Source of the DNA: Bryum argenteum
Lineage: Eukaryota > Streptophyta > Bryopsida > Bryales > Bryaceae
NCBI GenBank assembly: GCA_037043015.1
Contig: CM073321.1
Span: forward strand, 27,231,510 to 27,295,509
DNA: 64,000 bases
Direction of reading: 5' to 3'
Positions 24,318 to 60,189 of this stretch are shown here, one piece after another. Positions within the stretch are counted from its first letter, which is position 1; each line of letters starts with the position of its first letter. The notes beneath the pieces are model-generated. The model did not search any database. It worked only from the letters and a program-made list of their open reading frames with translations, and was not told the DNA's origin. Position numbers and translations under genes: made by a program.

Positions 24318-24657
24318 TAGGTTAGGGGCCGGTTCAACACTTGTTTGTCGAATAATTAATTAAAGTGAACAATTTGCAATTGACTAAATAAAGTTTTTTT
24401 TTTTTTTTTTTCCAACTTTTGTTTAATTTTTTTTTAAAAAAATCGGCTGGAAGCAGGGTTGTCTTATTAGACACAATTTTGGGAATGTCTGTCTGATTTG
24501 TCGTATTGGACATGTCTGTTAGACGTCGAGTCGACGAAAATGACGACCGTACCAAAAATTACATAGTAAAAAACTTGCTGAGATTTACCTTGAGGTAAAA
24601 AGCTATTTTCCTACGTGGCGTAGGGTTGATAATGACGTGGAGAATCAAAATACACGT

Positions 24658-25060
24658 CACAGTGGGCAACCGCGGGTGGGCGACCTCGGTAGGCGACTGA
24701 CGGTCGCACCGGGGCGAACGTCGGTCGCCTACTGCGACCGCCGATCGCCCTGGCTGCCGCAAGAAGGCGACCGGCGGTCAAAGATGGAGACCGTGGTCGC
24801 TTCGATCGCCGCAAGAAAGGCGACGGCGGTCCAAAGATGGAGACCGCGGTCGCCCCGGCAACCGCTAGTAGGCGCATCGCCGGTCGATCTTGGCGACCGA
24901 CGATCGCCCAGGGCAATCGTCGGTCGCTTATAGCGACCGGCGGTCGCCCTGGCAACCGCTATTAGGCGACCGCCGGTCTAGTACTTAGCAACCGACGATC
25001 GCCCAGGGCGATCGTCGGTCGCTTATGGCTATCGGCGTTCGCCCTGGGGGTAGCGCCCAT
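24658..25060. repeat. CGACCGCCGGTC array, left subterminal
   Basis: Dense GGCGACCGCCGGTCG and GCGATCGTCGGTCG words in both orientations, starting about 200 bp inside the left end of element 1 and downstream of its transposase. Its place mirrors the array at 43790-44000 near the other end. Confidence 0.85.
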
Positions 25061-25416
25061 TTGGCGATGTGTGTGGTGACCAGCACTATGGTTGTATATG
25101 AAACAAGAAAAATATATCCATATTGGTACAAAATGAGCTTCAAAGCATTTTTATGAATACCTTTTTAATGGAACCAAGGTCAATGGTGCATTTCAAAGTA
25201 CAAATTTGCTCATGTCTATAATCATAGTATTCATATATATGATGTAACTATTACATATACCAAACTATATGTATTATACTCCCGAAACATACTAGGATAC
25301 CAAAGTATTGTAAGCTAATAGTTGCCCTACTTGCAGTACATTGTAGTATTGTACCGAGTACTAACAATGAACTTCGTGCTTCCAATCCAAAATAACAAAA
25401 TTCTAATAACCCGTCT

Positions 25417-28400
25417 TTAGGTATCCTTCAATGTATACGTATCGTCGCTTGATATTTCATCTGCGTTTGGATCGGTTTCACTTAGAGAGTCATCAGTGCT
25501 TTGGTCGCCATCCTCGTCTTCATCCTCTGTCTCATTGCGTACTTCACACTCAACCACACTCGCCAAATTGCGCAATTCCGTGTCCGTGGTTGTTTTCTTG
25601 TTCACTGTAACGAGGCGCTTCAAGGGCCGTGAAGCATTAGTGATCCCGTTTGCGTTCAGTGGTAGATGGCGCATTGTACGTGTATTCGGATTATTGGATG
25701 AAGCAATCCCAGCATGGACTTCTTCATGTACGCGTGCTCCTTTCCGACATCGTCGATCGTGTGCCTTCCTCAAACGCTTCTGGCCTCGTGTAATACGATT
25801 GCGAGGTTGTATAGATGGCCCGACGTCTTGTGCCACTGCCAATGCCCGGTTGCATGTTGGACTTGTTGGTTCTATCTTGACCTCCATCTTCGGCAATACC
25901 ATACGAGTTGTATGGGCCCCTTTAGGTTGGGTAACCCTTGGGAACAATTGTTGTAGAGGTACATCGGAGTCATCTCCGTTAAGAGTTGAATTCCTTGATC
26001 GAATGGTTGAAACTCTAGGTGACCCCACTTCCATGCAACCTGAATTGGATACATCGTCTGGTTCCACTTTAATTTGGTCCATTTGAACTCCTGTCGTGGT
26101 AACCGTGCCCTTCACACTCTCAAGTTTATCGTCGTTGTTAGAGTGTGGGCTGCCTTTAAGTGGACCAATGTTCTCTTCATCCATCCGGTTTACCAAGTCT
26201 TGTTTCGCTAGGCAGATACTCTCTTGGAGTTGTAAATTTGCCACTCCTTCTCCTTCTGTGTCGCTGGCAAATACCGCAAACTGGCGAGGCAGTTCTGGAA
26301 CATCCTGGTCGTCATCGAACTCAAACGGGTCCTTGACATGAATAGTCATGTTTCCTTCATTGTCGTTCCAATTCTCTAGGTCGTCGTGTTCGCTACCGTC
26401 ATTGACATAATTGTCGTCATCCGCCTCCGGGTTATCCATGAATACACCATCATCCCATTCATTGTCGGGTACATAGTCTTCTTCGTCAGAGTCCTCTTCT
26501 TCTAAGTTTTTTCCGTACCACGTTCTCGGCGATTTGGTACGTTTCTGGCGCTCGAGTTTGGCGTTCGCATAGATGTACACAAGGTCCTCTGCTTCGGAAG
26601 TTGACAACCGATTCCTCACTTTGTTGTGCACGAAAGAGTACATGCTCCAATTCCTCTCACATGATGAAGCTGAACATGTCAATGCCAAAATCCTCTTCGC
26701 AATTTTTGGCAAGGCATTCCCCCCGACTTGATGCCACCATTGATGTGGTAACAAGTCACAGTGAGCTAGATCAGGGGCCTCTGAATTGGTGTTAAATGGA
26801 CCCGTCCTCTCCTCATATTGTATGAGTTCCCGCACCACTTCCTCATAGACCACTCCCATTGGGGCGCTAAGCTTCCTTATGACCCGGTTTAAAGCTCTTT
26901 TTGCTTCTCCATTGTTTTGAATTGCTCCAATATTTGTCAAATAAGGGTTCAACAAAGCTGCTGCATAGTGGAGGTCTGTGAGCATCATTTCCCATCGTTT
27001 TTGAAATGCATCCTCATATTTTGTAGCAATGTCGGGGGATAGTTTGAATGGAGGTTCACGTAAAGAGAACACGTGTTCCTTAAGGTCCGACATGATCACA
27101 TACGCCCTGGGCATGGCTGGTACTTCCCCGTCGAACTCCCGAAGAGCTAGGAGTACTGGTTCAACTACTTTGACAAACTTCGTACAATTCTCCTTGAACT
27201 CATCGCTTCTAATGCTATTCCACACATTCCTTGCCTTTGTCTGTAACTGGTGATTGTTTTGTCTGTTGAACAATGTTTGGACAAACACATGCCACTCCGG
27301 ATCGATCACCATGTTGTTCAGAGGTTGTTGTAGCTTTAACAACCGCTCTATCATCAAGTAGTTTGTTGCAAATCGAGTTTGAGGTGGTACCTTGAGCTGC
27401 AGCTTCGGCGAGTACTTCCTGAATAGAGCAAGGGGGACGTGGGACCCCTTAATAAATGTGCACACTCTCTTGGCTTGCTCCACCAAATGCTTAACCCACG
27501 CCTCTTTCTCCCAATCTTCCAGAAGGAGGTCTAGAATATGTGCCGCACAACCTTGTCCATACAAGTGAGGATAGTCTATGTGCAACTTCTTCACAGCACC
27601 TAACATGGAGCTTGCATTGTCGGTGCATATCTGCACGATGTTTTGTGGTCCAACCTCCTCTATGTACTTCGCCATTTCATTTGCCACATAAGCAATGTCC
27701 TTTTTCTTCCCCGTAGTATCCATCGATCCCAAAAACACCTCTCCCTTTGGGCAAACAAGCATCATGTTAATGAGTGGTCCGCTTGTGACATCGGACCACC
27801 CATCTCGAGCATATTGTTCCTCCGTACTTCTCGATAGAAAGTTTTGTTCGATCCTCTACCGACCTTTGCACATTTGCCTTCTTCGCATCGAGCATCATGA
27901 TCCTAATAGCATGATACGAGGGTGGTTGATATCCACCAATACCGGCTTTTCTTTGTCTCTTGAACGACACTTATGAATGTTGGATGTCGTACGACATTGA
28001 ATGCAATGTTTGCCTCATAGAAAAATGAAGCCCACTTTGCATCCAAATTTTGCCTAATGGCAAGATCAAAACTATCCTCCATACTCCTTTGCCCATGTCG
28101 CCGTCCACTAGAGAGTGTAGAGATCCTTTGTCCATTGCTGCCATGACTCCCCTTGTTAGAGGATGGCACCTGATTAGACCTTAGGTTAGAGGATGGCACT
28201 TGTACAGACTTGATGCGAGGGGTATCTATGTTCTCTGTGGTTTCCCTTGCCGCATATGGTATGCCGGCATCCACTCGTGAGTCAGGAACAACATCCACAT
28301 AAGAAATGTTGTTCTTTGGAACTATCCCTCCGCAGTCACGGAATAGCTCGAGAACTCCACGGAGCAACCTCGTACACCGGGGTAATGGGGAATTGTGAGG

Positions 28401-28577
28401 ATATCCAAAATGAGCTAATGCTCGTTGCCTTACAAAGACTGTGCTTTTTCCACAGAATAAGCACACGCGAGTATTTGGCTTGTTGTTCCGTTCCGTGGAT
28501 ACTCGTAGCCACTCGTCCCATATGCGAGTGTCTCTTCTATTATCTGGTACCCCGTTGGATTGGGAAGAATGCTCCAT
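25417..28577 (-). pseudogene. hAT transposase with BED finger and long acidic tail, element 1
   Basis: Catalyses cut-and-paste transposition of hAT elements in the nucleus. The N-terminal part (28577-27960) holds a BED-type zinc finger (WDEWLRVS, CLFCGK, ALAHFGY). The RNase-H-like catalytic core includes SDVTSGPLINMMLV (first acidic residue), CTDNASSMLGA (second) and GCAAHILDLLLEDW, and the hAT C-terminal dimerisation region reads CSASSCERNWSMYSFVHNKV. About 390 further residues follow: an acidic stretch (EEEDSDEEDY), two KxE-P words (IKVEPDD, VKIEPTS) resembling sumoylation sites, and a basic patch (RGQKRLRKAHDRR). Two apparent single-base frameshifts, near 27965 and 27805, break an otherwise well-kept frame, so this copy may be newly inactivated, or the assembly may be wrong there. 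A TATATAAG lies ~170 bp upstream, next to a CGACCGCC array. Confidence 0.88.
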
Positions 28578-28747
28578 GTTCTGGAACCGCACCTCCGCTG
28601 CTGCAATGAAAGCGGTGACGACAACACGCACTACAAGGGCTCAAGTTACTCTTTGCACATATAGACCGAGCAGGGGGCTTCTCATGGGGAGACCCAAGAC
28701 AACGGGCCAAGCGCAAAGGAAAGTAGCTTCGAGCCCGTGAACGACTC

Positions 28748-28755
28748 CTTATATA
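28748..28755 (-). promoter_or_regulatory. Probable TATA box of the element 1 transposase
   Basis: TATATAAG on the minus strand, ~170 bp before the chosen ATG (28577), directly followed upstream by a CGACCGCC array. Confidence 0.55.
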
Positions 28756-28761
28756 CTCCAC

Positions 28762-28920
28762 AGCCAGATCGGTGGTCGCCACAGCCAGGTCGGCGGTCAC
28801 CCTAACAACAAGGCTGTCGCGCCATGTGAACCGGCGGTCGCCCTGGCCTTGACTTCATCGCGCTAGCTGGACCGCCGGTCGCCCTAGCCCTGACCCAGTT
28901 GGACCGCCGGTCGCCATAGA
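28762..28920. repeat. CGACCGCC array upstream of the transposase
   Basis: About five copies of GACCGCCGGTCGCC or close variants, immediately upstream of the TATA-like site of the minus-strand transposase. Confidence 0.8.
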
Positions 28921-29459
28921 GATGACAGATTGTTCCGACAAAGAGCACTTTACTCTCCAAGTCAATATCCATGGTCCACGCAGTACAGCTATTATTAACT
29001 AGAATCCTGGAGACCATGTGGCTCAAAAATGTTTGATTCGCAATAATGCTTTTCTTTTGAAAAGAAAAAAAAATAATAAAAATAAAGGGAACATGTGAAG
29101 GCAAGAGAGAGAACAATAAGGACTCATATTAGAAACTAGAGTTTTAACTTCTCTTGCTCCAAATCCAAAAAATAAAGGGATGAATATTGCTCAATCCACG
29201 TTTCCTAAATAATTAAGAATGATAAAAATTGCCATGTATCAATGACGGTACCTCGGACATTGAAGGTTTTTCCTTTATGCTTATACCACATGCAATAGTG
29301 AGATTTCATTCACCAAGAATATTTAAATTGAAGAAAATCAAAAACTTCATATTCACATTCAACATTTTTGCATACAAAATGGCAATTGCACTTAGTGTTT
29401 GGTATTGAGTACACTACTTTTCTACAATTGCTAAAAAAACGTGATTAACTAACTACCAG
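28921..29459. other. Intergenic, nothing recognised
   Basis: AT-rich sequence between the transposase promoter and the 3' end of gene A. No supported coding or repeat feature. Confidence 0.4.
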
Positions 29460-30137
29460 TCATTCTTCGCTTGGGCCCCCTTCATTGTAAAGTTGGCTTG
29501 GCCCCCCTTCATCAAAATGTGCTCGACCTTCCTCCATCGTTTGGTTCGGCTCCCCTTCATCCACTTCTCGCCTTTCGGTCCCTTCTTCTTCCGAATCTGA
29601 CCAAACTATGTCCTCATCAGGGATTCCTCCTTTGTAACCCCTAGGTGTTGTAAGCCCTTCTCGTGGGTTGGCCGCTGGATAAGGAGCTCGCGGAATATGG
29701 GGTTCTGTTGGCTTAATTGTTTGAGGGGATTTTTTAAACGTCCTCCAATCCACGTCCCTCTGCAAAATTACCTCCGCGTACACCATTTGTGCTATGTTGT
29801 ACGAAACCTCGTTGCTCACCACATGCACACCGGCGTAGAATAACTTCCACACTTCAATGCATCGTTGCACAAATTCATCGTGATGGCAATAGTGCAAATT
29901 TGCGCAATTCAGGCGACGATGAAACTCGTGACGATAGTGTGGAAACAAATGGCCGATGTGGCACCAAGCAATGTACCACTTGCAAGTCTTAAGGGTCCAC
30001 GGTTCCTCTACTTGCGCCCACCCCGGAAAAGCATGTTGCGTGGGATCTATGAGAATCTTGTGAAATCTCCTTTGCTTCTTTCCTTTCCTCTTGCGGTCCT
30101 TGTCTCTCGCTATCTTCCGCTCTTGGCTAGGCGTCAT
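29460..30137 (-). CDS. Element 1 cargo gene A: short FPGW/WCHI/VDW-domain protein
   Basis: Unbroken frame of about 225 codons from MTPSQERK; an in-frame ATG seven codons earlier (30158) is possible, but the chosen start aligns with gene B. A Lys/Arg-rich start (KDRKRKGKKQRR) leads into the domain shared with genes B, C and D: HAFPGW, then W-x(9)-WCHIGHLFPHYRHEFHRR, CANLHYC, FVQRCIEVWKLFY, NEVSYNIAQMVYAEV and DVDW. The rest is Pro-rich then acidic (SDSEEEGTERREVDEGE). I do not know this domain; conserved Cys and His (WCHI, RHxxH, NLxxC, RCIEV) could bind zinc. Basic N-terminus and acidic tail would fit a nuclear regulator, but that is inference. It lies upstream of the transposase on the same strand, downstream of a CGACCGCC array. 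Confidence 0.65.
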   Translation of the reverse strand: MTPSQERKIARDKDRKRKGKKQRRFHKILIDPTQHAFPGWAQVEEPWTLKTCKWYIAWCHIGHLFPHYRHEFHRRLNCANLHYCHHDEFVQRCIEVWKLFYAGVHVVSNEVSYNIAQMVYAEVILQRDVDWRTFKKSPQTIKPTEPHIPRAPYPAANPREGLTTPRGYKGGIPDEDIVWSDSEEEGTERREVDEGEPNQTMEEGRAHFDEGGPSQLYNEGGPSEE

Positions 30138-30414
30138 GGTCACCCAAATGCTAACCAAGGAAGAAAATTTTTAAACTAACTCAAAACAAAGTTATATCTA
30201 TTCCGTGGACTAACACAGAAATTAGAAAACTAAAAAATCGGGCAGCATGTATGTGTAAAATGCACACGTGTGGCACGTGTGTGCCAATCACCGCACGCTC
30301 TAGCGCTCGAACAAGCAGGCGGCAACCAGAGGTCGACACCAGACAATGCGCAAGGCTCGACACGTGGAGGTGAAAAATGGCGACTGGCGGTGTCCGCGCG
30401 CGTATATGTAACCC

Positions 30415-30722
30415 TGGTTCTAGGGCGACCGCCGATCCAGCTGAAGGGCGACCGCTGATCCACCCGATGGGCGAACGTCGGTCGCTGGGGCGACCGCCGA
30501 TCCAGCGGATGGGCGACCGCCGATCCACCTGGTGGGCGACCATCGGTCAGAGGGCGCGACCTCCAAATGGGAGGGCGCGACGTATGCGTGGGGGCGCGAC
30601 CTCTAGATCGCGCGACCGCCGATGCAGCCGACAGGCGAACGTCGGTCGCTGGGGCGACCGCCGAGCCAACTGGTGGGCGAACGTAGGTCACTGGGCGACC
30701 GCCGGTCCAGCTCATGGGCAAG
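30415..30722. repeat. CGACCGCC array upstream of gene A
   Basis: Repeated GGGCGACCGCCGATCCAG and GGGCGAACGTCGGTCGCTGG words about 280 bp before the gene A start. Part of it (about 30536-30640) is duplicated almost exactly at 32455-32560. Confidence 0.85.
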
Positions 30723-32397
30723 GACTAACCTTCCTCCCAGCGTGTTTGTCAGAATTATCAAAGTAGTAACGAATTTATATAATGACTTTTGGTGGCAAAT
30801 ATTTGGAACCATTAAAACTAAAAACAAAAAAAAATAAAAAAAATACATATATATATATATATATATATGGGGCAATAATGTGATTTTAATACTTGGACTT
30901 CCTAATAATGACCCTATGAAAATGATTGAATCATAAAAAAAACCATAGGGAAATCGCATCCATATGTCATAATTTAGGTGCACCCACCACAACTTCGAAT
31001 GATAAGGGAAAAGAGAATGAAAGCATACAGGAGGTGATACGAACACTTGAATTAGGTAATAAGGGCCTCATAAATGTAATGGAAGAATTCATAAAACCAT
31101 GGGAGAATGCGAACTAAGTGGTTGAGTTTATATGGGGATATTTGAATTGCGGGGTCTGAAGCACGGGGAAATATGTAAATATATAAGTAAAAAGGGAGTA
31201 GAAGGGGTGTTGATAACTTTCCTAGGTGATGCATATAGTGTAAAAAATATAATATAAATCTTAGGGGCACAGCAGGAATGAAAGTATTTTTTCCGAATTT
31301 CCAAAAATTAAATAGTCATGTGAAAGTAGGCGGTGTGCGCACATGCATACGAAAACAAAGTGGGGAATGTAATTTGAACATTTGGACTACACTAAATAAG
31401 TACATTAGTGTTAGATTTTTATAAGATTTGAAAATGCTACAAGTTTTTACTTTTGGGATAAAATTTTTACGAAGAGTATCGATTCCAATTTTATGTACGG
31501 ATTCGCATCTTCACCTTTGTAGAGGGTACAAATATTGACTAATAGTAAAAACTTATAGCCTATTTATGTATATTAGTGTATCTAACACTAATCTACCTAT
31601 TTAATGTAGGTAATATGGATCATATAAAAATAATGGAACCATCAAAAATATTATAGGACAACCTGTACTATTTTTCCCAAATTAATATAGAATTTTCGAA
31701 CTAAGTAGAGCTTTAAATAATAGATAAAAAATAGTTAAATGGAGAGAAAATATATTTTAAAAAGAATTGGACTATTTAATAACTACCTTATGAACATGAT
31801 GGAGCTATAAAAAAAAAATCGTTGGAGTAAAGGATCTATAGGGTGGATTTTGGTTGCAAGCACTTAGAAACACCAAAACTTCAAAAAATAAGAAAAAATA
31901 GATAAAGGGGGTAAGGGGAAAATTTAAACCCTTAGACTACCTAATGATGACCCTATGGAAATGATGGTGTTATTTAGAAAATCGTGGGGATATGTCATCT
32001 ATAGGTCATCATTTACTTGTAAGTCATTTGAATGAGTAGAATATTGAATGATATACGGAAAATAGATTTGTGGAAAGAGATAACAATTTTAAAACTTGTG
32101 TTGACTTAAAAAGACCTTCTAAAAATTATGGAAGAACAAAATTTCCCGTAAAAGAAACGTATCTACATGTTATGATTTACTTTGACTTTGTAGGATGCTA
32201 AGTAATAGAGGAAGTTATACTAAAGGGGGGAGGAGGTGGTTTTATTATTTTCTCTAACCGTATTAAATATATTAAATCATGAAAGAAGCCACATGGAACT
32301 TGGATTCACATGGAAGGAAATACTTGGTGTTAATTTGATTCAACCTTGGCATGGTATAGGTCTATAGGATACTTGGTGTTAACTTCATTCAAAACCT
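30723..32397. other. AT-rich gap inside element 1
   Basis: No convincing ORF. It holds a short (AT)n run at about 30846-30868. The next array (32398-32795) has no gene on either side within 600 bp, so a cargo gene may have been lost here. Confidence 0.4.
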
Positions 32398-32795
32398 CCA
32401 AATCGCGCGACCGCCAATACAGCGGATGGGCGACCGCCGGTCCACCTGGTGGGCGACCATCGGTCAGAGGGCGCGACCTCCAAATGGGAGGGCGCGACGT
32501 ATGCGTGGGGTCGCGACCTCTGGATCGCGCGACCGCCGATGCAGCGGGCGGGCGAACGTCGGTCGCTAGGGCGACCGCCGATCCAGCTGATGGGCGAACG
32601 ACGCTGACAGGGCGACTGGCGGTCTACGTGATGGGCAAGCACGAAGGAGAAAGTGTCCGCGAGCCTCCGCGCACCCTCCTGCTGGGGCGACCGCCGATCT
32701 AGGCGATGCGCGAACGTCGGTCGCTAGGGCGACCGCCGATGTAGCTCATGAGCGAACGACGCTGACAGGGCGACCGGCGGTCTACGTGATGGGCG
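32398..32795. repeat. CGACCGCC array without an adjacent gene
   Basis: The same words as the other arrays. It contains a near-identical copy of the array upstream of gene A, including GGCGCGACCTCCAAATGGGA, so it arose by duplication. No ORF directly follows on either strand. Confidence 0.85.
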
Positions 32796-33493
32796 CGAAT
32801 ATCTGCTTCCCCCCCTTTTGCTACAAATCTTTTTCTGCATATTTGAAATCATGTACGAATCATTACCTTTAGATGTTTTGGGGGGTTTGTAAAAATATTC
32901 ATCGACTCTAAATACTTGCAACTAAATCCCACCATATATTTATACGTAATTTCAACAACTTAGTTACGATTCCAAATTTTTACAAATTATTTATCATTAC
33001 TTCATCGTGGATGAATACTAATCAAAGCTTTCCAAAATTCAATATCATTATATATACATATGGAATGGTATACACGACATAATTTTCTAAAAGACCACTG
33101 TCCAAAGTATCCACCAACCTACCAACATACAAACCTACCAACTTAAATAATTACCAACCTACATACCATTCTAAGAACCTTTTTTTAGATATTTCCAAAT
33201 CATGCATTTCAAATAAAAAATAAACAAATAAAAAGAATAAACAAGATGATTAAAATAACACCGTGCGCATATATACAAATAATAAACATAACATCGTTCA
33301 ACGGGTATCTTACTAGTAAAAACATATCATATAATCAAAAAGATACATTGTATAACATCCAGCCTAGCACTTATCTCCCAACTTTCAGTTCACAAATAAA
33401 ATAAAGTAAATGGATATAACCAACACACGAACGTCTTTCTAAAATTTGATTCCGCTTACTCTAATCTTCTTCCATTGTACTTTCGATTTTTTA
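32796..33493. other. AT-rich gap, nothing recognised
   Basis: Sequence between the orphan array and the 3' end of gene B. Short CCAACCTACCAAC-type repetition near 33115-33165; otherwise no supported feature. Confidence 0.4.
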
Positions 33494-35074
33494 TCAATGG
33501 TACCAGCTCCGACATTTCTCCTTTGTCTTATTTGCAATACATAGATCTTCGATCCTTGCATTTAAGAACCTCTCCTCTTCTGCGAGCACAAGTAGCTTTT
33601 TGACCAACTCCTCAGTTGTTTCATTGCGCTGTGAACTTTGACCCTCTTCTGCAATATCCACGGTTCCATCTATTCTATTGAGGACTAACTTTTCCTTGTT
33701 CCCCTTCAATCTTATTGATGCTAGGTTCACCCTTTCGATCTTAGCTCTCAAGGCATCGCATGCCGAAATGAGTTCCTTTAGCTCCTTCTCAAAATGACCT
33801 TGGTCCTTGGCTCCTTCAACCATAAAATCCTTCTCGCGACCCCAATCATTGACCACAAACCATTCGTCGACGCGCTTGTATCTCCTATGCACATCCTCGA
33901 AATGTTTCGTCTTCTTTATGAGCTCTTCCTCATAATCGACCTGATCCGATGCAACCAGAGCTGGGAGAACATTCGTTGCCTCCTCTTGGATCTTCATTTT
34001 TGCATCCTTGATGACCTCTATGTCATGTTGGAGTTCAACACACTTTGCCTGTTCGTATGACAAAGCATGAAACAAATATTCATAATCCTCATAAGCCTTG
34101 TTCAACAACTTCATCCACAAATCATCGTTTTCATTCGGGCGTTTCGCTTTGAAGACTACTTGAACTTCCTTCTCCAGCTCTACTTCTTCATTTCCTTCTC
34201 TTTCTGGCTGTTCAATCGTTTCCATTGGATATTCTAGAGTCCCATCCTCTACGCTAACATTTGTTTGAGGAGAGGCGCTCATAGCGGGCCGAACTATAAC
34301 TTCGGGTGTTCCCAAAGTACAAGCACCAAACATTGCTTCAACCTCCATGTATTCAATGACATCCGCTTCTCCTTCTGTTCGTAGGTCCTCGATGTGCTTC
34401 ACAGGTGCATCAATCACATCCAAATCTTGCATGGTTGTTTCACCCACATGAAAGTGTTCAACGCCACCAATAGAACCTTCTACAAGAGGAGTATGATGCT
34501 CCCTCTCCTTAACCTCTTCTTCATCAGAATTAGGATTTATCCAAACATACACATCATCAGCATCCCCATCTTTCCGATGTCTTGCTGCCGTAAGTCCTTC
34601 TCGTGGGTTTTCTATCAATGGGGCTCTTGGAATATCTTGCTTGGTTGGAAGGAAGAATTGAGGCGATTTTTTCATTGAGCTCCAATCCACCACTTTCTCC
34701 AATATTACCTCTGCATACACCATTTGAGCAATATGATACAAAACCTCGTTCTTGGTGACATTCTTGCCTTTATAAAGGAACCTCCACACTTCAATACATC
34801 GTTGCACAAATTCGTCATGCTTACAATAGTGCAGATTTGCAGCATTTAATTTCAAGTGCGCCTCATGTCGAAAGTGTGGAAACAACTTGCTGATGTGGCA
34901 CCAGGCGATGTGATTCTTCACTGTTGTCTGACTCCACACACCCTCTTCGGTCTCCCACCCCGGAAAAGCGCGTTGAGTGGCATCTTGGAGAATACGGTGA
35001 TTCCTCTTCTGTGTTTTTCCTCTCTTCTTGCGTCGCTCCCCAAGTACTATTTTACGTTCCGCAATTGTAGTCAT
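33494..35074 (-). CDS. Element 1 cargo gene B: FPGW/WCHI/VDW-domain protein with coiled coil
   Basis: An intact frame of 526 codons starting MTTIAERK. The basic start (RRKKRGKTQKRNHR) and shared domain occupy residues ~10-135: RAFPGW, IAWCHISKLFPHFRHEAH, AANLHYC, FVQRCIEVWRFLY, NEVLYHIAQMVYAEV, VVDW. It is very close to gene A here (HAFPGW, WCHI, FVQRCIEVW), suggesting duplication. A long acidic middle follows (residues ~180-330), then a probable coiled coil from ~340 to the end (e.g. EEELIKKTKHFEDVHRRYK; LVKKLLVLAEEERFLN), pointing to oligomerisation. No catalytic motif was seen. A CGACCGCC array lies 200 bp upstream. Length and lack of stops suggest selection or recent insertion. Function unknown. 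Confidence 0.75.
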   Translation of the reverse strand: MTTIAERKIVLGERRKKRGKTQKRNHRILQDATQRAFPGWETEEGVWSQTTVKNHIAWCHISKLFPHFRHEAHLKLNAANLHYCKHDEFVQRCIEVWRFLYKGKNVTKNEVLYHIAQMVYAEVILEKVVDWSSMKKSPQFFLPTKQDIPRAPLIENPREGLTAARHRKDGDADDVYVWINPNSDEEEVKEREHHTPLVEGSIGGVEHFHVGETTMQDLDVIDAPVKHIEDLRTEGEADVIEYMEVEAMFGACTLGTPEVIVRPAMSASPQTNVSVEDGTLEYPMETIEQPEREGNEEVELEKEVQVVFKAKRPNENDDLWMKLLNKAYEDYEYLFHALSYEQAKCVELQHDIEVIKDAKMKIQEEATNVLPALVASDQVDYEEELIKKTKHFEDVHRRYKRVDEWFVVNDWGREKDFMVEGAKDQGHFEKELKELISACDALRAKIERVNLASIRLKGNKEKLVLNRIDGTVDIAEEGQSSQRNETTEELVKKLLVLAEEERFLNARIEDLCIANKTKEKCRSWYH

Positions 35075-35275
35075 TGTTACCTCCGTTCACGGAAATGCCG
35101 CTATGATGTGATGTTAGATACAAAACACCAAAAATAGTGCAGTCCACGTTGGCCTCCAATCGAGCAAGCAAGTGGCAACTTTGAGTCGACACTAGACAAT
35201 GCGCAACACCACGGCACGTGGACTGAAAAGTGACGACTACGGCCAATAACGATTGTATTTAACCTCCTCTGGCAG

Positions 35276-35466
35276 GGCGACCGGCGGTGTCACGGCAACA
35301 TCGTTAGGGGGCGACCGTCCGGTCAGTGTTTCTTGCAAGACTCGCTCCAGGGCGACCGCCGGTCCAGCTGCAGCAGACCTCCGGGGCGACCGCCGGTGCA
35401 GCTTCAGAAGAGTTTCGATCCAGCCTCAACGGAGCGCTTCGGGGCGACCGGCACTCTGCAGGGGCG
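35276..35466. repeat. CGACCGCC array upstream of gene B
   Basis: Several GGGCGACCGCCGGTCCAG-type words starting 200 bp before the gene B start codon. Confidence 0.8.
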
Positions 35467-36767
35467 ACTTCGCGAGAGCTCCCGCTCTTTTTCTTGGATC
35501 CTCTTTATGCAATATTCAAATTTTGAATTAACCGATTCAAGCATCTCCCCATTCCCCCTTCAATCCCCCTCATCCCCCCTCATTCCCTCTCATTCCCACT
35601 CACTTCTTCCTATATCTCATTCCCAATTGAAAATGATTCTCATGGTCATGGGCATTTTGCCAAGAGCGGTGACCATGATACATGAAAAATGATTTTATGC
35701 TCATTGGATACTCTTGTAGTGTAATATGGATTTAGATCGATACAAGTTTAATCACAATTTACAAAATTATAATTTTCAACATTCTCAAAATTCTCAACAT
35801 AAAATACTCATCAAATATTGGTTCCAAAAGTACGCTCAGGAATGGGTTGATAAGAATGTCCGCAAATCATTAGTCTTCTTGACTTCAAATATTTACCTTC
35901 ATATACTGGTCACTCATTTTTTCTCCAAACATATAATATGTCATGATATATCACCTTTTAATTTGGTAAGCAACTATTTCTCTCAGTGCTTTCTAGGGTA
36001 TATGCACTAATTCCATTCACTTAATTGTATTTCAAGGCCTTATTATTTGACTTGCCAAAATTTTCAAATTCCTCCTCCCACTCAATTTAATCAATTTCAT
36101 AATGTTATGAGCCCATAAACTCATTGCAAGGATAATCTATCAGTCGGATATTATATACGGAGATCTTATAATTTATTAAAGGCTCCACTGATATAAAAAG
36201 AAACTAGAAATTGTTCTTGAATGTGATGTTAAAACATGAGGTGCAGTTTTGGTACAGAAATGGTATCTTATTTAGATGCTAGGAATTGACTACCTTGGAT
36301 TACATTCTTAGATTGTAGGTATTGAATCGTTAGATTCATTAAAGTGTTTTCATGCATTGAAGAGGCTGATGCTCTATAAATGAATTCACATTTTATCAAT
36401 TATTATAACTGATTAGGCACGATATGACTTCTTAAAATATACACCATACAAAATAATATATACCATTCATGCCTACAAAGAGGACGAGGAACTCTCACCC
36501 CATCCTTCCTCCCATTCATTATTATCCATTTACACATCTCTTGTCCATTTCTTAGGAATTGAATGATCATAAAATGGGAATTATGGGACCCACGATCCGA
36601 AATTCCTACCCTATGCATACCTTCCTAATTTTTAAATTAATACATTATAAACTAAAGGGCTCTTTTATTCCTCCCCCATCCAATATTCATCCTCATCTCA
36701 TGATTCTCATCCTCGTAGGAGCTGCTATGAAACCTGATGCACTCCCATTCAACATAAAGAGGTGAAA
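35467..36767. other. AT-rich gap, nothing recognised
   Basis: A pyrimidine-rich stretch (35550-35620, CCCCTCATTCCC-type) and AT-rich DNA between genes B and C. No supported gene. Confidence 0.4.
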
Positions 36768-36995
36768 TAGGGCAACCGCCGATCCAGCTCATGGGCGAAC
36801 GTCGGTCGCTGGGGCGATCGGCGGTCCAGCCAATGAGCGAACGTCGGTCACAAGGCGACCGCCGGTATACCTTATGAGCGAACGTCGGTCGCTCATGGGC
36901 GAACGTCGGTCGCTGGGGCGATCGGCGGTACAGATAGGGCGATAGCTGGACCAGCGGGCAACCGGCGGTGCACATTTTGTAGACAGCCGGTCGCC
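36768..36995. repeat. CGACCGCC array upstream of gene C
   Basis: Repeated GGGCGAACGTCGGTCGCTGG and GATCGGCGGTCCAG words ending about 180 bp before the gene C start. Confidence 0.82.
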
Positions 36996-37172
36996 TTATC
37001 ACTGTGCTTAAGAACACGACGGGCAGTCCATTTTCACACTTTGCGAGTTCCTCCTTTTCGCGCATTGACTAGTAACGACTTCAGAGTTGCTGCTTGCTTG
37101 CTCGTAGAGGGACTTTGCGTTTTTCTACGAATTTTTCTTATGGAGGCACTACCCGTTGTAGCGGCCACATCC

Positions 37173-38460
37173 ATGGTGCGCCATGATCGAGGTCGGATTG
37201 CGAAGAAGCGCAGAGCTATCTTGAAGAATCCAAAGATAGTAGCGTTTAGAGGATGGGAGGAAGAGAGGGGGCCGTGGTCTTTTGCCATATGTGAGAAATA
37301 TGTGGAGCCACATCAACAAGCTCTTTCCTCTACATTGGCACAATATTCATCGGCACAAGAATGAAGCTAACCTCCGAGAGTGCCATCATTACGATTTCAA
37401 AGCGAGATGCATCTATGCTTGGCATATGATATACGGTAACAACCATATTTTTAAATATGAGGTTCCCTACTTTTAGGCAAAAATGGCATATGCGGAAATG
37501 ATTCTCAGGAAGGAGGTGGATTGGTGGACGCATCCACGTTTGCCTATACAAGAGAAGACCGAACCAATAGAGGTTGGAGAGACATCAAAGACTATTGAAG
37601 TAGATGGAATTGGAACTATACCTATGAGTCCTAAGGCCAACGCGGAATTTTACACAGCAGGGTCTTCTTCCGAATCCTCGGAGGATGAACACACACACGA
37701 ATACGAGCTCTGTGAACCAACTCGTCCTCCAATAAATTGGATTGAAGGAATTTCCTTTGAGGCAAATCCACTCCGAAAAGTGGGTGGAAGTTTATCCAAA
37801 GTCATGGATACTTTGATCATTTTGCACAATTTCAGTATAGGAAAATGCATGGAATTGGAGTTAGTACTGCAGAATAGAAAGGAATTGGAAGCCCTCAAAG
37901 AAAGAGCCCTTTCTACACCATACGATGTACAAGAAGAATGTCGGGAGGTTTTCGAAAAAGCTCTAGACTGCATGGCTGACATGGAGACCATGCTTGTGCT
38001 ACGAAAAGAGGCTAAGGAGAAGTTTTTCGAGAGAAAAAATTCAAACAGCCTTTCCATAGAAGACTACGTAGAGTTCTAGACAACTAAACATAGTTACCTG
38101 GAAGGGGTCCTGGCTGGGAGGAGGGATCGGTTGACGGATATTGAAGAATCTATTGCTCTAGAGGTAGATAAAGAGATGCTACGCATTCGTGATTTGGCAT
38201 TAGCGGGTAAGTATGGCAAGACTCCAGAGGAAGTTGACAAATTAAAGAGGCTGGTGAAATGGAGTGAAGGCCATAATGTAAAACTCTCAAAGCAACTACG
38301 TGTAGCTGAGGAGAATGCTCGATTTGAGGACGCATGGGCAGAGTGGGCTCATCGTAAAAATAACGCAAAAGTTGACATCAACAGAAACGCAATTGACGTT
38401 GATTTGGAACCGCAACGATCACTTTTTTCAAAGGACAAGGAAAAATTTGAAGATTCTTAA
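37173..38460 (+). pseudogene. Element 1 cargo gene C: broken FRGW/HI/VDW-domain protein with coiled coil
   Basis: Plus-strand member of the A/B/D family. The start MVRHDRGRIAKKRR matches the basic starts of A and B; an ATG at 37140 is an alternative. The shared domain reads VAFRGW, then, after a one-base shift near 37303, WSHINKLFPLHWHNIHR, EANLREC, YDFKARCIYAWHMIY, YEVPYF, a TAG at 37474-37476, then KMAYAEMIL and EVDWW. The frame continues through an acidic middle to a TAG at 38077-38079, then through a coiled coil (residues rich in E, K, L) to 38460. The WCHI cysteine is Ser here. One frameshift and two TAG codons make it a pseudogene unless the assembly is wrong. Confidence 0.7.
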
Positions 38461-38891
38461 CGTAGAGGCGATGACTTACACCCCCAACATTCACCAAACG
38501 ATATTTGATTTACGTTAATTAGGTGTAGGGAAAGTGTAGGTAATTTCTTCTATGTACTTTTTCGCATACATTTTATATATGGAAGTTTGTTTTTACCTTT
38601 TATCATGCGTGAGTACGTGTTTGTGCATTGGTACAAGGGGTTGGGCGGGTTATATGGACTATGAAGATGTAAGATACAATAAAAGCTGACAAAGTACAAT
38701 CGATAGACCACAAGCAAAGGAGCGAACCAAATACATACCATAGATTTAAGCGATGCAAAAAGTAGTACAATAGGAAATGAGATACATTGTTGCAAAAAGC
38801 TGCCACTCGATAATACTATAATCAAATATAGTCCTATATAGCTAAAACCATACGCTATGCTGGAGTGTATGGATTCACAATATCGTAATTA
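38461..38891. other. Intergenic between converging genes C and D
   Basis: The 3' ends of genes C (plus) and D (minus) face each other across 430 bp of AT-rich sequence. No separate feature recognised. Confidence 0.4.
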
Positions 38892-41222
38892 TCATTCACT
38901 AGGCTGAGGGTTGGAGCATTCTCCAACAAGAAGTTTGCGCTTTGCACGAGTTCGATTGAATGGACCATCTGCATTTAAGATCAGATCTAATACTCTAGAG
39001 TCTTTCAAGTCTTGCAAAGTCCTTCTTGTGAGGGGACTATGTACATCCAGTAAATAGTCTAGAGCTTGAGACTGGTATTGTGGCCCCCAAGTAGACTCAG
39101 CATATTGACACTCTTCCAAATCTTCCATGGAGGCACGACCTTCACCGTCGGTTACTCTCTTCCCATATTGATTCCATCGATGTCCCATTGGATGGGGCCC
39201 CCACTTGAATGTATTAGAGCTCACATCAAAATAGCCTCCAAGGCATTGGAAGAAGAACATCCGATTACCCTCATGCTGTGGACCTTGTCCGGCAAGTATT
39301 GGTGCAACTCTTAGAATCTCGTTTGGGTCAGTCTCCCAATTCAATTGGGAGCTAGGAGTACTCTTCTCGAGATCATGTTCACCTCTACGCCAACTCCAAA
39401 TAAGGTCTTTACCCCAGAATCGAACCTCGTCAGTAGTCTCAGCATTGTGTTCCCAAGAAGGCGGCATATAAGTTCTTAGATTGAACATCTCGTAGAACCG
39501 CTCGTGAAAAGGCGCTTTGCATATAGCACAACGACTTTGAGTCAAACAATGAACTAAAAGACACTGCGGATGATACATATGGACACAAGAGCCTAAAGCC
39601 CATCCACCCTCAGGTCCAAATGGATTTAGGCATATGGGACACGTAGAGTGATCCAATACAAACTGCGGAGGGTTGGGCCACAATAATGTCCTGGATTCTA
39701 CATCAACATGTGCCGACATGTGGTGTTTGAAATTCCACCCGGCCTTGCTCCAATCTACAACCTCTGTAGAAGTGTCATCCTGCATCTTGATGTCCATCAT
39801 AGGAAGATTATCAAACAATGTATCCACACTCGGCCACGAGGTCATATCGAACGTTCGCCGACCAGATCCACTAGTAAAATTCTTATCGATCTTCTCCAGC
39901 TCCGCTGCAACTTGTCTCCCTCTATCCACCGAAAGTATACATGCCACCTTCCAATGGTAGGAAGTGGCAGACAACTGCTCCAAACGGGCTTGCAGTTGTT
40001 GCTTTTTCTTTAATAAGGAGTTGTATCCATCAGACGACATGAAAGGGGGATTACGAAAAGGGGGGAACAGCGGTAAAGATAAAGAATCTTGAGAATCACA
40101 TCGCACATCTTCTTCTCGTTCGAGGCCCGACATATGAACAACACATGGCTGAGCTTTCACAGGACGGCGCAATATAGGACGTTGCGGTGACATTTCTCCA
40201 AATGCCAAGTCCTCTGTAAGGTTCAAGACAACTCTATCAACATCCGCCATGTCAGATTTCTCTACATCTCCACAAATGTTACGTGCGTGAGATAGTTCTT
40301 GCATCTTCTCGCGCATGCGTGCATATTCCACGGAAAGCTGCTCCCCTTCTTTCACCTTCTCCTCATACATTGCTCGTGTTTTTTCGAGATCCGCTTCCAA
40401 TCTTGCTATGACGTCGTCTTTACTCTTCAGAAGAGCTTTGAGATCAGAAGATGTGTCAAGTTCTTCCAATGGTAAGATGCAAGTACCATGGGGCTCTACT
40501 ACGAGTGAATTACTTGCTATTGCAAGGCGAGAGCCACCTATTTGAGGAACGCGGCCAGGTAAATTATGACGCTGATCCGCATCAATCACAACGCTGGCGG
40601 GAGGAAGAGGTTGTTGTACTTGACGCACCGCCTTACGAGGCCGCGAACCATCCGAGTCATCGTCCTCTTCCGATGTAGCACTATGATAGGAAGCCTCTTC
40701 CATAGCCTTGGTAATAGACCTCGTCACTCCCATGCCACCATTAGGAGCGTCAAGGAATCTTAGAATGCCTGTCGGAATGTCACTCGTTGAAGGTCGTGTT
40801 ACATGCTTCCCCTCTTTGACAGTTGTCCAATCCACTCGTTTACCAAGAGCAACCTCGGCGTATACTCCACGAGCAAGAAACAAAGGAACCTCGTTGCGCT
40901 CCACATATGGCATGCCATACAGGACTTGGCAAACCTCAATGCATCGTTGTTTGAAGTTTGGGCATTCGCAAAACTTAAGATTTGCCTTGTTGGTGCGCCG
41001 ATGAAAATGGTGACGAGACAGAGGGAATTTCTTGTCAATGTGACACCATTCAATGAACGATTCGCAAGTGGCCATCGTCCACATATCTGGTTCATCTTCC
41101 CAACCTCTGAAGACAAGCTTATTTGGATTTTGAAGCACGTGTAATCTTTTCTGTTGTGGAGCGCCCTTCCTCTTCCTCTTCTTGTCATTCTCTTCCTTCC
41201 TAAGTTGCCCGAGAGTAGCCAT
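38892..41222 (-). CDS. Element 1 cargo gene D: FRGW/WCHI/VDW-domain protein with RING-H2 finger
   Basis: Intact frame; start chosen at MATLGQLRKEEN (41222) because its homologue in element 2 also begins MATPG. About 776 residues. Basic start, then the shared domain (residues ~20-145): LVFRGW, FIEWCHIDKKFPLSRHHFHRR, KANLKFC, FKQRCIEVCQVLY, NEVPLFLARGVYAEV, RVDW. A coiled coil follows at ~285-330. A RING-H2 finger sits at ~527-571: CPIC, then CVHMYHPQC after 14 residues, then CAIC after 10 more, which fits C-x2-C-x14-C-x-H-x2-H-x2-C-x10-C-x2-C. RING-H2 proteins are usually E3 ubiquitin ligases, so recruiting an E2 enzyme is the likely activity. The C-terminal ~200 residues (WSWRRGEHD, FFFQCLGGYFD) are conserved in the element 2 copy. 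It is divergently arranged with kinase gene E across a shared array. Confidence 0.82.
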   Translation of the reverse strand: MATLGQLRKEENDKKRKRKGAPQQKRLHVLQNPNKLVFRGWEDEPDMWTMATCESFIEWCHIDKKFPLSRHHFHRRTNKANLKFCECPNFKQRCIEVCQVLYGMPYVERNEVPLFLARGVYAEVALGKRVDWTTVKEGKHVTRPSTSDIPTGILRFLDAPNGGMGVTRSITKAMEEASYHSATSEEDDDSDGSRPRKAVRQVQQPLPPASVVIDADQRHNLPGRVPQIGGSRLAIASNSLVVEPHGTCILPLEELDTSSDLKALLKSKDDVIARLEADLEKTRAMYEEKVKEGEQLSVEYARMREKMQELSHARNICGDVEKSDMADVDRVVLNLTEDLAFGEMSPQRPILRRPVKAQPCVVHMSGLEREEDVRCDSQDSLSLPLFPPFRNPPFMSSDGYNSLLKKKQQLQARLEQLSATSYHWKVACILSVDRGRQVAAELEKIDKNFTSGSGRRTFDMTSWPSVDTLFDNLPMMDIKMQDDTSTEVVDWSKAGWNFKHHMSAHVDVESRTLLWPNPPQFVLDHSTCPICLNPFGPEGGWALGSCVHMYHPQCLLVHCLTQSRCAICKAPFHERFYEMFNLRTYMPPSWEHNAETTDEVRFWGKDLIWSWRRGEHDLEKSTPSSQLNWETDPNEILRVAPILAGQGPQHEGNRMFFFQCLGGYFDVSSNTFKWGPHPMGHRWNQYGKRVTDGEGRASMEDLEECQYAESTWGPQYQSQALDYLLDVHSPLTRRTLQDLKDSRVLDLILNADGPFNRTRAKRKLLVGECSNPQPSE

Positions 41223-41831
41223 GGATGAAATAGTCAAAAATGGCAAATAGTTATTACCTACCCCGCACGAGCATGCAGCCAATTTAATGGATGTATGACA
41301 ACGCGCTAGGCCAATAAATCCAAATAACAAGTTAAGGTACGATGGGGGAATATATACGTCGAGGCGACCAGAAATTCAAGGCGACCGGCGGTCCAGATAG
41401 AGGTATGACGTTGCGTGGCGATCGCCGGTCCAGTGAGAGCGCGACCGCCTGTGCAGCTAATCGCGACAGCGGGAGGCAGGGCGACCGCCGATGCAGCTGT
41501 TCGCGACAGCGGGACATAGGGCGACCGCCGTTGCAGTTGTTCGCGACAGCGGGACGTAGGGCGACCGCCGGTGCAGCTGTCGCGACAGCGGGACCTGGGG
41601 CGACTGCCGGTGGGCGACTGTAGGGCGACTGCCGGTCTCCAGGGATATATAAACCCCAACGCGCGGGTTTGATATTACTTTTCCCCAAACCGCTACCGAA
41701 TTCTCCTCCGCCCTGTGTCGTTGCTCGTCTTAATGATGCGCACTGCCGGGTCGTCTGAGGAGTTTTTGGGGTTTAGTGCACATTGATAGCAGGGGGGAGA
41801 TTTTTTGCCGGTTTTTTCAAGAAATTCAGCG
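41223..41831. promoter_or_regulatory. Bidirectional promoter between genes D and E
   Basis: 609 bp separate the two divergent start codons. TATATAAA at 41646-41653 points to gene E, and TATATA at 41351-41356 could serve gene D. The CGACCGCC array (41370-41640) lies exactly between them. Confidence 0.55.
41370..41640. repeat. CGACCGCC array shared by genes D and E
   Basis: Long units of about 55 bp (GGGCGACCGCCGGTGCAGCT and TCGCGACAGCGGGACNTAGG) repeat about four times from 41470, preceded by shorter CGACCGGCGGTCCAG words. Confidence 0.85.
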
Positions 41832-43381
41832 ATGAGTAAATCCAAAAAGCACGGGGAGGGACAACGAGCATGGGATCTGGATGCCCCTGAAACATTTGCA
41901 CCAGACCTTGGTATGCAACAACCTAGTGGAAGTGGAGGCCATAGGAGGAAGAGGAGACACCCAAAAGAAGTAGCTCCCGGATTCCCAACATCAGATTATA
42001 CTAGGTTTGCAGAAAAAGCATGCTTGGATTGGTATGAGGAAACGGAGGCTCAATTCCTAGAGCACAACTACCTGAAGAATGTTAGCACGGGCAAAGAGAG
42101 AATGAAGAAGAAATTGGCGGCAGTAATTTTGAAGGCCATGGAGGAAACGGAGAAATACCAAGATGTGGATTATCATTCACAGTACGAGTTGTGGATGGAT
42201 AATACAGTTGAACAATGCATCTTCAATGTAAAGGAGTTGTGGAAGAAGCGATTTGGAACGAGGCGTCTAACACAAGAGGAGGACCAGTTTAAACGCAGGA
42301 TGGATTGGTGGCAACACACAATCCAAAAGCTTAGCAAGAATAAAACCCGAGGGAAGTCATGGGAAAAAACCGCTTTGCGCGCGACATTTGAACGAGACAC
42401 AGGGTCGGGGGTGGTGTGGATTCCTCAAGATGCTACGATAGAAGCTCTATCAGGCCGCAATATGGAGGGAGGCCATGGACTGGTGCGGAAGGTGAAGATA
42501 CTTGGAGTAGACCACGTTCCAGAAAATGTCGAGTTTGCAACAAAGCTTTCCAAGAATATGAATCTTCAGAAGAGGAGGATAGAGACTGCTGCAGAAGCTC
42601 TTGTATGTCCTTTGAATCATCCAGGAATTATCAAGTTTTGGGCGTTGTATACAAGGACATTCGAAGCTTACTCATATTGGTGGAATGGGGAATCACTACA
42701 CGAGATGTTGAAGTTGGATGAGAAGGTCGGGGACAAACATCTTCACTGGTCGAAAGTGAAGGAAGTTCCGAGTCTCACTCAAGAGGAGGCTTTCAGAATT
42801 AGCCTTTCCCGTCAGCACATGATGAAGTTAGCTTGGGGTTTAGTGTACATCATGAATCTCGTGCATAAGACAGGAGTTCTTCACAACGACCTATCCCCCT
42901 CGAACATACTATTGCATTTCCCAACTTTCGGAGGAACCAAGATTTGTATTGGAGTGTGTGACTGGGGGATGGCATCTCGTATAGTAGAACAACAGCCTTC
43001 ACGTTACGGATACCAGACGACGCCAAAAAAACAAGAAGATATGACACGTCGATGGTGGGTGGCGCCCGAGTTGTTCTATACTTATGGACCTGAAGGTTTT
43101 GATACAAATATGAACGTCCAAGAACTTCGACATCCAACCACGGTAGCATCAGATTCGTATGCAGTTGGCAAGCTCATCCAGCTGATTGGTGTGCATAACG
43201 AATTCGACGAAGAATTATTACCGAATTCGACGGTGCGAGATTCATGTCTAACGAAAGTGTTTTCAATGCCACGCATGAATTAAAAGAGAGAATGACCTAT
43301 GCGGAGGTGGTGAACCGCTTGATGGCGAAACCATATCATATGCTTCCACCGGAGCTTGTATTTAGAGAGGACAGTTATTAG
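41832..43381 (+). pseudogene. Element 1 cargo gene E: protein-kinase-like protein
   Basis: Start at MSKSKKHGEG; an ATG at 41805 in the same frame is possible. N-terminal ~180 residues are basic and family-specific. A glycine-rich loop (GGHGLVRKVKI) lies near residue 212, WWNGESLHEML ~285, catalytic-loop HNDLSPSNILLHF ~350, CDWG (in place of DFG) ~376, APE in VAPELFYTYGPEG ~403, and SDSYAVGKL after it. HND replaces HRD and DWG replaces DFG, but the catalytic Asp, Asn and metal-binding Asp remain, so activity is possible. The long frame stops at 43281-43283, but a +1 shift near 43230 leads into NATHELKERMTYAEVVNRLM, the expected last helix, ending at 43379-43381. The homologue in element 2 ends the same way, so that is taken as the true C-terminus and this copy as frameshifted. 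Confidence 0.78.
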
Positions 43382-43789
43382 TTTATAATATCAATATATC
43401 TTCTTGCAATTCATAGACTCCTTTGGATGACCATCTCACGTCATTGAGTGCTCATTTAGCCATGTAATTCACATTTCATACTTGCAATATATACAATCTA
43501 CTTTTTGACATATTGTTCCAAATCTAATAGATTTTTGCAACTCTTATAATTATGTTCCCTTTTTACACTAGTCACGTATGTATGTCACCACATTTTTTGT
43601 TACATGAGTTTCAAACCTCATGGTTGATGTTAGCCTTTTCTTCAGGGGTTTGTGGATTGTTGTAATTTGTTTCATCTTGAATTCTTAATGCTTCATCTAC
43701 GTTTAAAAACGTGAACGGAAGAATTTTGGATAATGTTAGATAAAAAAATTGACTTACTCTACTCGGGGGAAGCCTCCAATGCAAGGCCA
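43382..43789. other. AT-rich gap, nothing recognised
   Basis: Downstream of gene E and before the right subterminal array. No supported feature. Confidence 0.4.
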
Positions 43790-44000
43790 GCCTAGGCGAC
43801 CACCGGTCCAGGGGCCAGAATAGGCGACCGCCGGTCCAGCGAGACCGCCGGTCGCCCATGGGCGATCGTCGGTCGACCCTGGGCGATCGTCGGTCGACCT
43901 GGGCGATCGTCGGTCGACCTGGGCGATCGTCGGTCGCTAAGGCGACCACCGGTCCAGAGAAGGCGACCGCCGGTCTAGATGACGCGACCGCCGGTCCAGT
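43790..44000. repeat. CGACCGCC array, right subterminal
   Basis: Includes near-perfect 20-bp tandem units GGGCGATCGTCGGTCGACCT (43855-43935) and GCGACCGCCGGTCCAG words. It ends about 195 bp before the right end, mirroring the left subterminal array. Confidence 0.87.
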
Positions 44001-44551
44001 CCTACGTGGCGCGGTCGCGAACCGTATTGCTGAGCTGTACAGGCCACGTGGCAGCCACGTAGGATGCAACGTGGATAGGGTAAATCCAGGATAAAAAAAT
44101 GATTCTGTAGATTCTATTAGACATTCTGAGGCTCAATGTCTGTCTGACATGTCGTGTCTGTCTGACGTCCGTCTGTGTCTAATAAGGCAACCCTGGCTGG
44201 AAGTAAAAAAATGTATGAGAAATTTACATACAATATTACTGCAAATGAATATTTTCTCATTTCCCAAAAAGATTCATTTCTCTTCATAAAATAATATCTT
44301 GACATAATTGCACAAGGGATGGCTAAGTGACGGCTTATTTGAAGTTAACCTAACTAATTACCCTAATATGAATTTAGAGCTTCTTGCAACACGCAACACT
44401 TCTTTCATGTGTTCTTGCTTTTAGGTTTTGGATTGTTGATGGTTTGGGTACTGGTATTGAAATCGTTTTGCTTATTTTGAGGTTAGTTGAAGTCAAAGTG
44501 ACAAAATCAAGAACTTTGAGTAGCATTTTTGTGCCATTTTCCGAGGAAGAG

Positions 44552-47431: not shown

Positions 47432-47599
47432 CAAGGTTGTCATATCGGTCGTGTTGAGGTAATCAGGCGGACAAAACGGACATACGAGTTGTCCCGGACG
47501 GACGGGCGTGCCCGCCCACCTTGATTGTAGGGGTGTGTAATTTTTTCATGGGTAACAAACTTTGCAGTAAAAAGCCATGTACGATGTGACGTGTAAGTC

Positions 47600-51650: not shown

Positions 51651-51782
51651 CGCATTCGAGCCTAAAGGATGAAGGCTCTAGTGGCCAATTTGATATATGA
51701 TGTAAACCCTCGTAATAATTCTTTGCTCTACTGTCGTGCATGAACCAATTTTGACATTAGCTTCGCTGTCAACTAGCGCTGG

Positions 51783-51950: not shown

Positions 51951-51959
51951 ATACGAATG

Positions 51960-52365: not shown

Positions 52366-52417
52366 TTTTTAATTTTTTAAAAAAAAGTGACATTTGAAGA
52401 AGAATGGAAGAACCATA

Positions 52418-53536: not shown

Positions 53537-53640
53537 TAATATAAATTTTGATCGTAAAATCAAATATATAATTAAACCAATAGCATTATAAATTAATATG
53601 TAATATAGCATGGGGAAGAAGAATCAAATAAACATAATAC

Positions 53641-57287: not shown

Positions 57288-57289
57288 CC

Positions 57290-60167: not shown

Positions 60168-60189
60168 GGGGAGGGGAGTGTGGGCACTT

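Follow-up and report, generated by a model that had tools for sequence, protein, structure and literature searches.

A family of large hAT transposons in Bryum argenteum with accessory genes and motif arrays

Transposons of the hAT superfamily are textbook one-gene elements, and Ac itself carries one gene. Here we describe a hAT element from the moss Bryum argenteum, located in a stretch of 64,000 nucleotides (hereafter the window; C1:27231510-27295509, where C1 is contig CM073321.1) of a 258.8 Mb genome in 25 contigs. This element is a decayed copy from a family of large hAT transposons, here called family A, and it resembles known members of the superfamily (Ac/Ds, Tam3, hobo, Tol2) in its short terminal inverted repeats (TIRs) starting with CAGGG, its 8-bp target site duplication (TSD), its dimerization domain and its short non-autonomous relatives. 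It differs from Ac, for which a length of 4.6 kb is given in PMC3260210, in measuring ~19.5 kb, in bearing five conserved accessory genes and in having a motif array for each gene. New in family A are its size, an accessory gene set that stays constant, and the arrays.

VANDALs are Mutator-like transposons and, like family A, plant DNA transposons with accessory genes and element-enriched motif arrays in non-coding DNA, a likeness that concerns only how the two may work. In the VANDAL/VANC system, binding of a transposon-encoded protein to short, arrayed non-coding motifs causes methylation to be lost (as reported in PMC5735166). The family A enzyme, in contrast, is a hAT transposase, with hAT domains found by Pfam and no Mutator-type domain, and Pfam showed no relation for its candidate binding proteins, which were not compared directly with VANC. 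Starships, in turn, carry variable cargo. Together with other giant eukaryotic transposons they share with family A the character of large mobile units with many genes (as described in PMC11623301 and PMC6431247), and Starships differ in their tyrosine recombinase captain (according to PMC12506042); none of eight scanned open frames of the family A element matched this captain (DUF3435) in Pfam. ToxhAT/ToxTA of wheat-pathogenic fungi, a 14-kb class II element with several genes, was first called a hAT, but we rejected it as a precedent because its class is now doubted by its authors, who think it Tc1/mariner-like (both as stated in PMC12506042).

The initial annotation of this locus proposed that a cargo-bearing hAT of this size may be undescribed, and the literature that we searched agrees with it: within that collection, no title or abstract start among the papers listed described a hAT of this build, and 'giant hAT' and similar phrases retrieved only two astronomy papers. 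The word hAT does not occur in the searched text of a 2019 review of giant transposons (PMC6431247), nor is hAT mentioned in that of PMC13317346. As the best overall explanation, we consider it likely that family A is a large hAT unit with a fixed six-gene set that serves the element and is wired by arrays.

Ends, empty sites and other copies

The element occupies positions 24454-44195 of the window (19,742 bp), as delimited by its TIRs and TSD. The left TIR (24454..24475, + strand) and the right TIR (44174..44195, - strand) follow the pattern CAGGGTTG[T/C]CTTATTAGACACA, are 22 bp long and agree at 21/22 positions, and the TSD GCTGGAAG stands on both sides (24446..24453 and 44196..44203), which bears out the ends, the near-identical repeats and the perfect duplication of the initial annotation. 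The TIR length falls within the 5-27 bp range given for hATs in PMC12506042, and by its TIRs, its 8-bp TSD and its dimerization domain the element is a member of the hAT superfamily. Scanning the genome with the TIR pattern at ≤3 mismatches returned 1119 matches, against 0 for a reversed control pattern, and fuzzy end matches numbered 33 in real end stretches and 0 in shuffled ones. The reversed-pattern control, the TSDs and the shuffled stretches rule out chance ends.

A genome search with the two flanks fused through one TSD found four contiguous matches elsewhere, at 87-92% identity and in the same host repeat. Three of the four were aligned over the junction, each showing a single copy of the target site, GCTGGAAG in two and GCTGAAAG in one. 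The unoccupied site, which the initial annotation had suggested seeking in another accession, was thus found as a contiguous repeat in the same genome, not in another accession. The sequence flanking the window element is repetitive in its own right: at least four of its relatives in the genome are unoccupied. From the TIRs, TSDs and empty sites we conclude that the element moved in the past by cut-and-paste through a hAT transposase, and that the ~19.5-kb element moves as one mobile unit is close to certain.

Genome matches to the transposase, the kinase and the accessory gene c4 were scored for the best candidates only (56 of 1185, 86 of 1010 and 55 of 1781, respectively). Pairing transposase and kinase matches by position, with second pieces of the same copy left out (9/65 transposase rows, 4/90 kinase rows), gave 30 pairs within 60 kb in the expected orientation, 22 of them at ≤21 kb; no same-strand pairs were found within 40 kb, with wrong-order opposite-strand pairs left untabulated. 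We examined the ends of the 22 pairs, which lie 10-21 kb apart, and 15 showed both ends and an 8/8 TSD (14 scored by script and one, with a degraded right TIR, judged by eye). These complete-ended copies are located on C1, C5 and C8; ten measure 18-20 kb and the rest 12.8, 13.2, 17.8, 20.4 and 22.6 kb. A search for further copies with the same ends, proposed in the initial annotation, therefore yielded similar-sized elements with perfect 8-bp TSDs on three chromosomes.

Eleven further inward-facing TIR pairs on C1, picked by eye among 100 places listed, had a TSD of 8/8 in eight cases, of 7/8 in one and none in two. They comprise two full-length colinear copies (19,383 and 19,695 bp), a colinear copy of 17.7 kb that has no TSD, and a copy of 13.2 kb from which c3 and c4 are missing. 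The other seven are relatives of 4-9 kb with no gene matches save one of 39 residues. At either end, ~300-350 bp of the large element is retained in these gene-less relatives, as are some parts of its non-coding DNA, and five of the seven have a perfect TSD. A 5.7-kb relative is inserted in the kinase gene of another copy, flanked by the TSD CTTCACAA, and the unbroken site is represented by the window kinase gene, which has CTTCACAA once.

Six large copies were compared end to end. All six genes were matched, whole or in part, in five of them, with the sixth lacking c3 and c4, and the arrangement of the genes, in order and in orientation, is kept from copy to copy. A Pack-TIR element with varying captured host fragments was rejected on this ground, the gene set and order being the same. 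In a check for open frames, the five large copies other than the window copy had most of their genes interrupted at one point or another, which fits insertions of some age.

Gene content and a sister family

The transposase lies in two frames in the window copy. Its main part (25420..27855, - strand) contains DUF659, the hAT dimerization domain and a long C-terminus; its N-terminal part (27906..28640, - strand, with a predicted ATG at 28577) is out of frame with the main part. A transposase in a single open frame, of 1073 codons, is present in a copy on C7. Pfam matched DUF659 in the window transposase and PF05699 (Dimer_Tnp_hAT) in both the window (E 5.2e-6) and the C7 copy (E 1.8e-6), in each case over the cut-off. 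The initial annotation had assigned the element its own BED/hAT transposase. The hAT part of that assignment stands, while a BED zinc finger received no Pfam match at E up to 0.1, with a C-x2-C ... H ... C stretch seen by eye in the N-terminal part.

The protein kinase gene (41790..43280, + strand) is an open frame of 497 codons with a Pkinase match above the cut-off (E 7.3e-12) and the catalytic motifs in place (glycine loop, HND, DWG and APE), which confirms the kinase-like gene predicted between the ends. The other four accessory genes have in common an unnamed domain of ~150 residues. c1 (29463..30170, - strand, 236-codon open frame) joins it to an acidic tail and c2 (33497..35086, - strand, 530-codon open frame) to a further C-terminal region. 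c3 (about 37140..38460, + strand) is the fourth paralogue, broken in the window copy but with 466 uninterrupted codons in another (C1:21435767). c4 (38895..41375, - strand, 827-codon open frame) has the domain at its N-terminus and a RING-H2 finger at residues 578-620. c1, c2, c4 and the kinase gene are open in the window copy. The four genes of an unknown domain family named in the initial annotation are thus indeed four paralogues, with the corrections that c3 is broken here and that c4 also encodes a RING-H2 finger. Between 37477 and 38076, c3 shows a dN/dS of 1.08-1.37 in all six pairs of copies, and the codons compared are free of stops, which points to fast evolution or lost constraint.

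The pattern C-x10-H-x2-H-x10-C is invariant in the shared domain of c1, c2, c4 and an aligned fragment from the sister family described below, and was seen by eye in c3; it is a predicted zinc-binding site. The RING finger of c4 has the spacing C-x2-C-x14-C-x-H-x2-H-x2-C-x10-C-x2-C (C3H2C3), with a Pfam zf-RING_2 match (E 5.7e-5) below the curated cut-off. A PDB search returned only one weak RING chain for c4 and none for the kinase at 1e-6, and the window had no matches in Rfam or tRNA scans. As to a viral origin, viral contigs were scanned once with the alignment of the domain; the 29 pattern matches included no relative, although such a scan says little about distant ones.

About 3 kb to the right of the family A element, the window contains an older, degenerate element of a second, 13-kb family, family B (47432..60614; TIR CAAGGTTGTCATA; TSD CTCGTGAT/CCCGTGAC, 6/8), with a transposase, a RING-type gene and a kinase. 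Further family B copies on C3 (12,827 bp) and C5 (15,629 bp) have an 8/8 TSD in their flanks. Compared with family A, the family B transposase is ~45% identical and the kinase ~30% identical; the RING protein has the same cysteine/histidine spacing as c4, and the catalytic motifs of the kinase are conserved. At 21 of the 40 best transposase places a family B kinase lies within 25 kb in the same relative orientation, and one nearby pair is odd; this pairing left out lower-scoring rows (80/136 kinase and 110/150 transposase rows, family A copies and fragments included). When the shared domain is placed on a midpoint-rooted tree, c4 falls among the family B RING proteins (support 94/91, just under the star of the tool), and c1 and c2 are sisters (100/98). 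The transposase-RING-kinase core thus probably predates the split between the two families, and c1-c3 appear to be later duplicates of the c4 N-terminus.

Because the same genes recur in the same order and orientation and the core is found in a second family, the accessory genes look like the element's own set and not like a one-off capture. The gene set is very probably maintained for the element, which the accessory genes would thus serve. The initial annotation was right about a large gene-carrying hAT, and its term 'cargo' is too weak for a constant set that recurs and whose core is present in a second family. A transposase, a RING protein and a kinase kept over two diverged families, together with a set of paralogous proteins and with every gene wired to a single motif, would mean that the hAT superfamily can evolve virus-like gene content.

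Motif arrays and a proposed mechanism

The palindrome GACCGNCGGTC has 51 matches in the window at ≤1 mismatch, of which 50 lie within the element; when the element is block-shuffled, 0.3 are found. It is enriched in 12/12 elements examined, and the short gene-less relatives also carry arrays. Subterminal arrays stand on the left (24695..25020, eight motifs at ≤1 mismatch) and on the right (43798..43996, ten motifs). Internal arrays are located upstream of the transposase (28829..28912, three motifs), c1 (30427..30707, seven), c2 (35279..35398, three) and c3 (36797..36992, seven), and between the divergent c4 and kinase genes (41383..41637, four). The nearest motif lies 148-290 bp upstream of each of the six predicted start codons, all six of which have at least three motifs within 600 bp upstream, a result equaled by 2/20000 random placements. 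None of the 50 motifs lies within coding DNA.

Genome-wide, the exact 14-mer GGCGACCGCCGGTC has 1232 matches and its reversed control 0. A list of 100 of these places, all from the first 4.6 Mb of C1, includes 72 that lie no more than 10 kb from a known copy, compared with 13 at random. Runs of the 14-mer at an exact spacing of 21 bp occur at C1:1081708-1081889 (nine units) and C1:3388161-3388279 (six units), and this regular spacing suggests that the arrays expand through tandem duplication.

From their placement, the arrays would act in trans, and the balance of the sequence evidence is in favor of their serving as shared regulatory sites. In the mechanism that we propose, transposase supplied by intact copies would cut at the TIRs, aided by the subterminal GACCGNCGGTC arrays. 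The arrays before every gene would put all six genes under one trans-acting factor, as a shared regulon with a promoter or anti-silencing role. This factor would most likely be one of the paralogous domain proteins c1-c4, and it could maintain activity, or an unmethylated state, at promoters and ends, much as VANC does. Anti-silencing as the purpose of the arrays, argued by analogy, is quite possible, if somewhat short of probable. The RING protein and the kinase might target proteins of the host, with the machinery of silencing or repair as the simplest candidate; silencing is our best guess, and as such a rather doubtful one.

In its widest form, the proposal is of a clade of giant, self-contained hATs with its own anti-silencing system, in which element-encoded domain proteins would bind the palindromic CpG arrays at the ends and ahead of each gene, the RING ligase and the kinase would disable silencing or steer repair, and motif and protein would co-evolve, with families A and B differing; we put this forward tentatively. 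If the arrays are binding sites, family A would provide an independent case, beside VANDAL/VANC, in which motif-array counter-defense can be directly tested, and might also lead to new ways of removing DNA methylation at chosen sites in plants.

Alternative explanations

The alternative that survives best regards the arrays as transposase-binding sites or promoter CpG-island elements with no anti-silencing role, and the accessory proteins as aiding only transposition or the control of copy number. Subterminal repeats are known to be bound by hAT transposases, and the arrays are indeed present at both ends and in the short gene-less relatives. However, five arrays stand at gene starts away from the ends, and the lower CpG decay of the arrays speaks weakly for protection from methylation. 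Between copies, decay affected 55/1027 CpGs in arrays, 130/1457 in coding DNA and 38/513 elsewhere (arrays versus coding, Fisher p 8e-4), which hints that the arrays are locally protected from methylation. We regard this alternative as a serious one that nevertheless falls short of an even chance.

Several results weigh against the fixed, array-wired gene set that we favor. In one of the four CpG comparisons (E21434) array decay exceeds coding decay, all four include the window copy, and alignment within repeats is unsure. One array of eight motifs (32432..32782) has no recognized gene start beside it. Exact GACCGNCGGTC is absent from the three family B copies, and the GC-rich CCCGCCC[CT] clusters found there are weaker (34, 49 and 22 matches against shuffle means of 9.7, 15.0 and 6.3). 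Pfam gives no family for the domain shared by c1-c4. No copy has every gene whole among the six large copies checked for open frames, and seven of the 22 transposase-kinase pairs failed the end test, six having one or both ends unrecognizable in the fetched stretch and one having a TSD of 4/8. Finally, dN/dS over five copies (gapped codons skipped, stops counted separately) is mostly below 1 for the transposase main part, c4, c2, c1 and the kinase, but the values are noisy: 0.31-0.71 for the transposase main part (10 pairs), 0.49-0.68 for c4 (six pairs), and 0.43-1.24, 0.34-0.92 and 0.20-1.34 for the kinase, c2 and c1 (10 pairs each). The first and second parts of c3 gave 0.40-1.07 and 1.08-1.37 (six pairs each), and the N-terminal part of the transposase 0.91-1.47 (six pairs).

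These dN/dS values, often above 0.5, and the accessory genes broken in many copies would also suit passenger capture, in which an ordinary short hAT trapped neighboring host genes and the 20-kb form spread by chance. Against it, families with transposases ~45% and kinases ~30% identical both retain transposase, RING gene and kinase with catalytic motifs intact, and arrays precede all six genes; we therefore judge capture improbable. Adaptive cargo, with genes useful to the plant that carries them, an idea put forward for the Starships of fungi, could draw on a possible role of kinase and RING proteins in host signaling. The gene set is, however, constant across copies and its core across families, not variable, and most of the best-scoring copies lie on C1, where the two families of host genes that were tested are scarce, so that we consider this explanation very unlikely. 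An assembly or nesting artefact, with unrelated elements stacked by chance, could appeal to larger pairs such as a 32.9-kb TIR pair with an 8/8 TSD, presumably a nested insertion, but has next to no probability given colinear copies at many places with their own TSDs and a contiguous empty site.

C1, which makes up 44.1 of the 258.8 Mb, holds 43 of the 56 best-scoring transposase places and 65 of the 86 for the kinase; these shares refer to the best-scoring copies. Of 29 right ends that match nearly exactly, 11 are on C1. It contains 0/90 matches to light-harvesting (chlorophyll a/b-binding) genes and 2/52 to DEAD helicase genes, and may be a non-recombining or sex chromosome. The 90 chlorophyll a/b-binding matches in the genome agree with a plant source, and among solved structures one of these proteins is closest to chains 9vfj_2, 8htu_U and 7xqp_a, of which the last two are moss entries. 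In the window, the element is adjoined by a gene whose two open frames (44378-46201) include a DDE_1 transposase domain.

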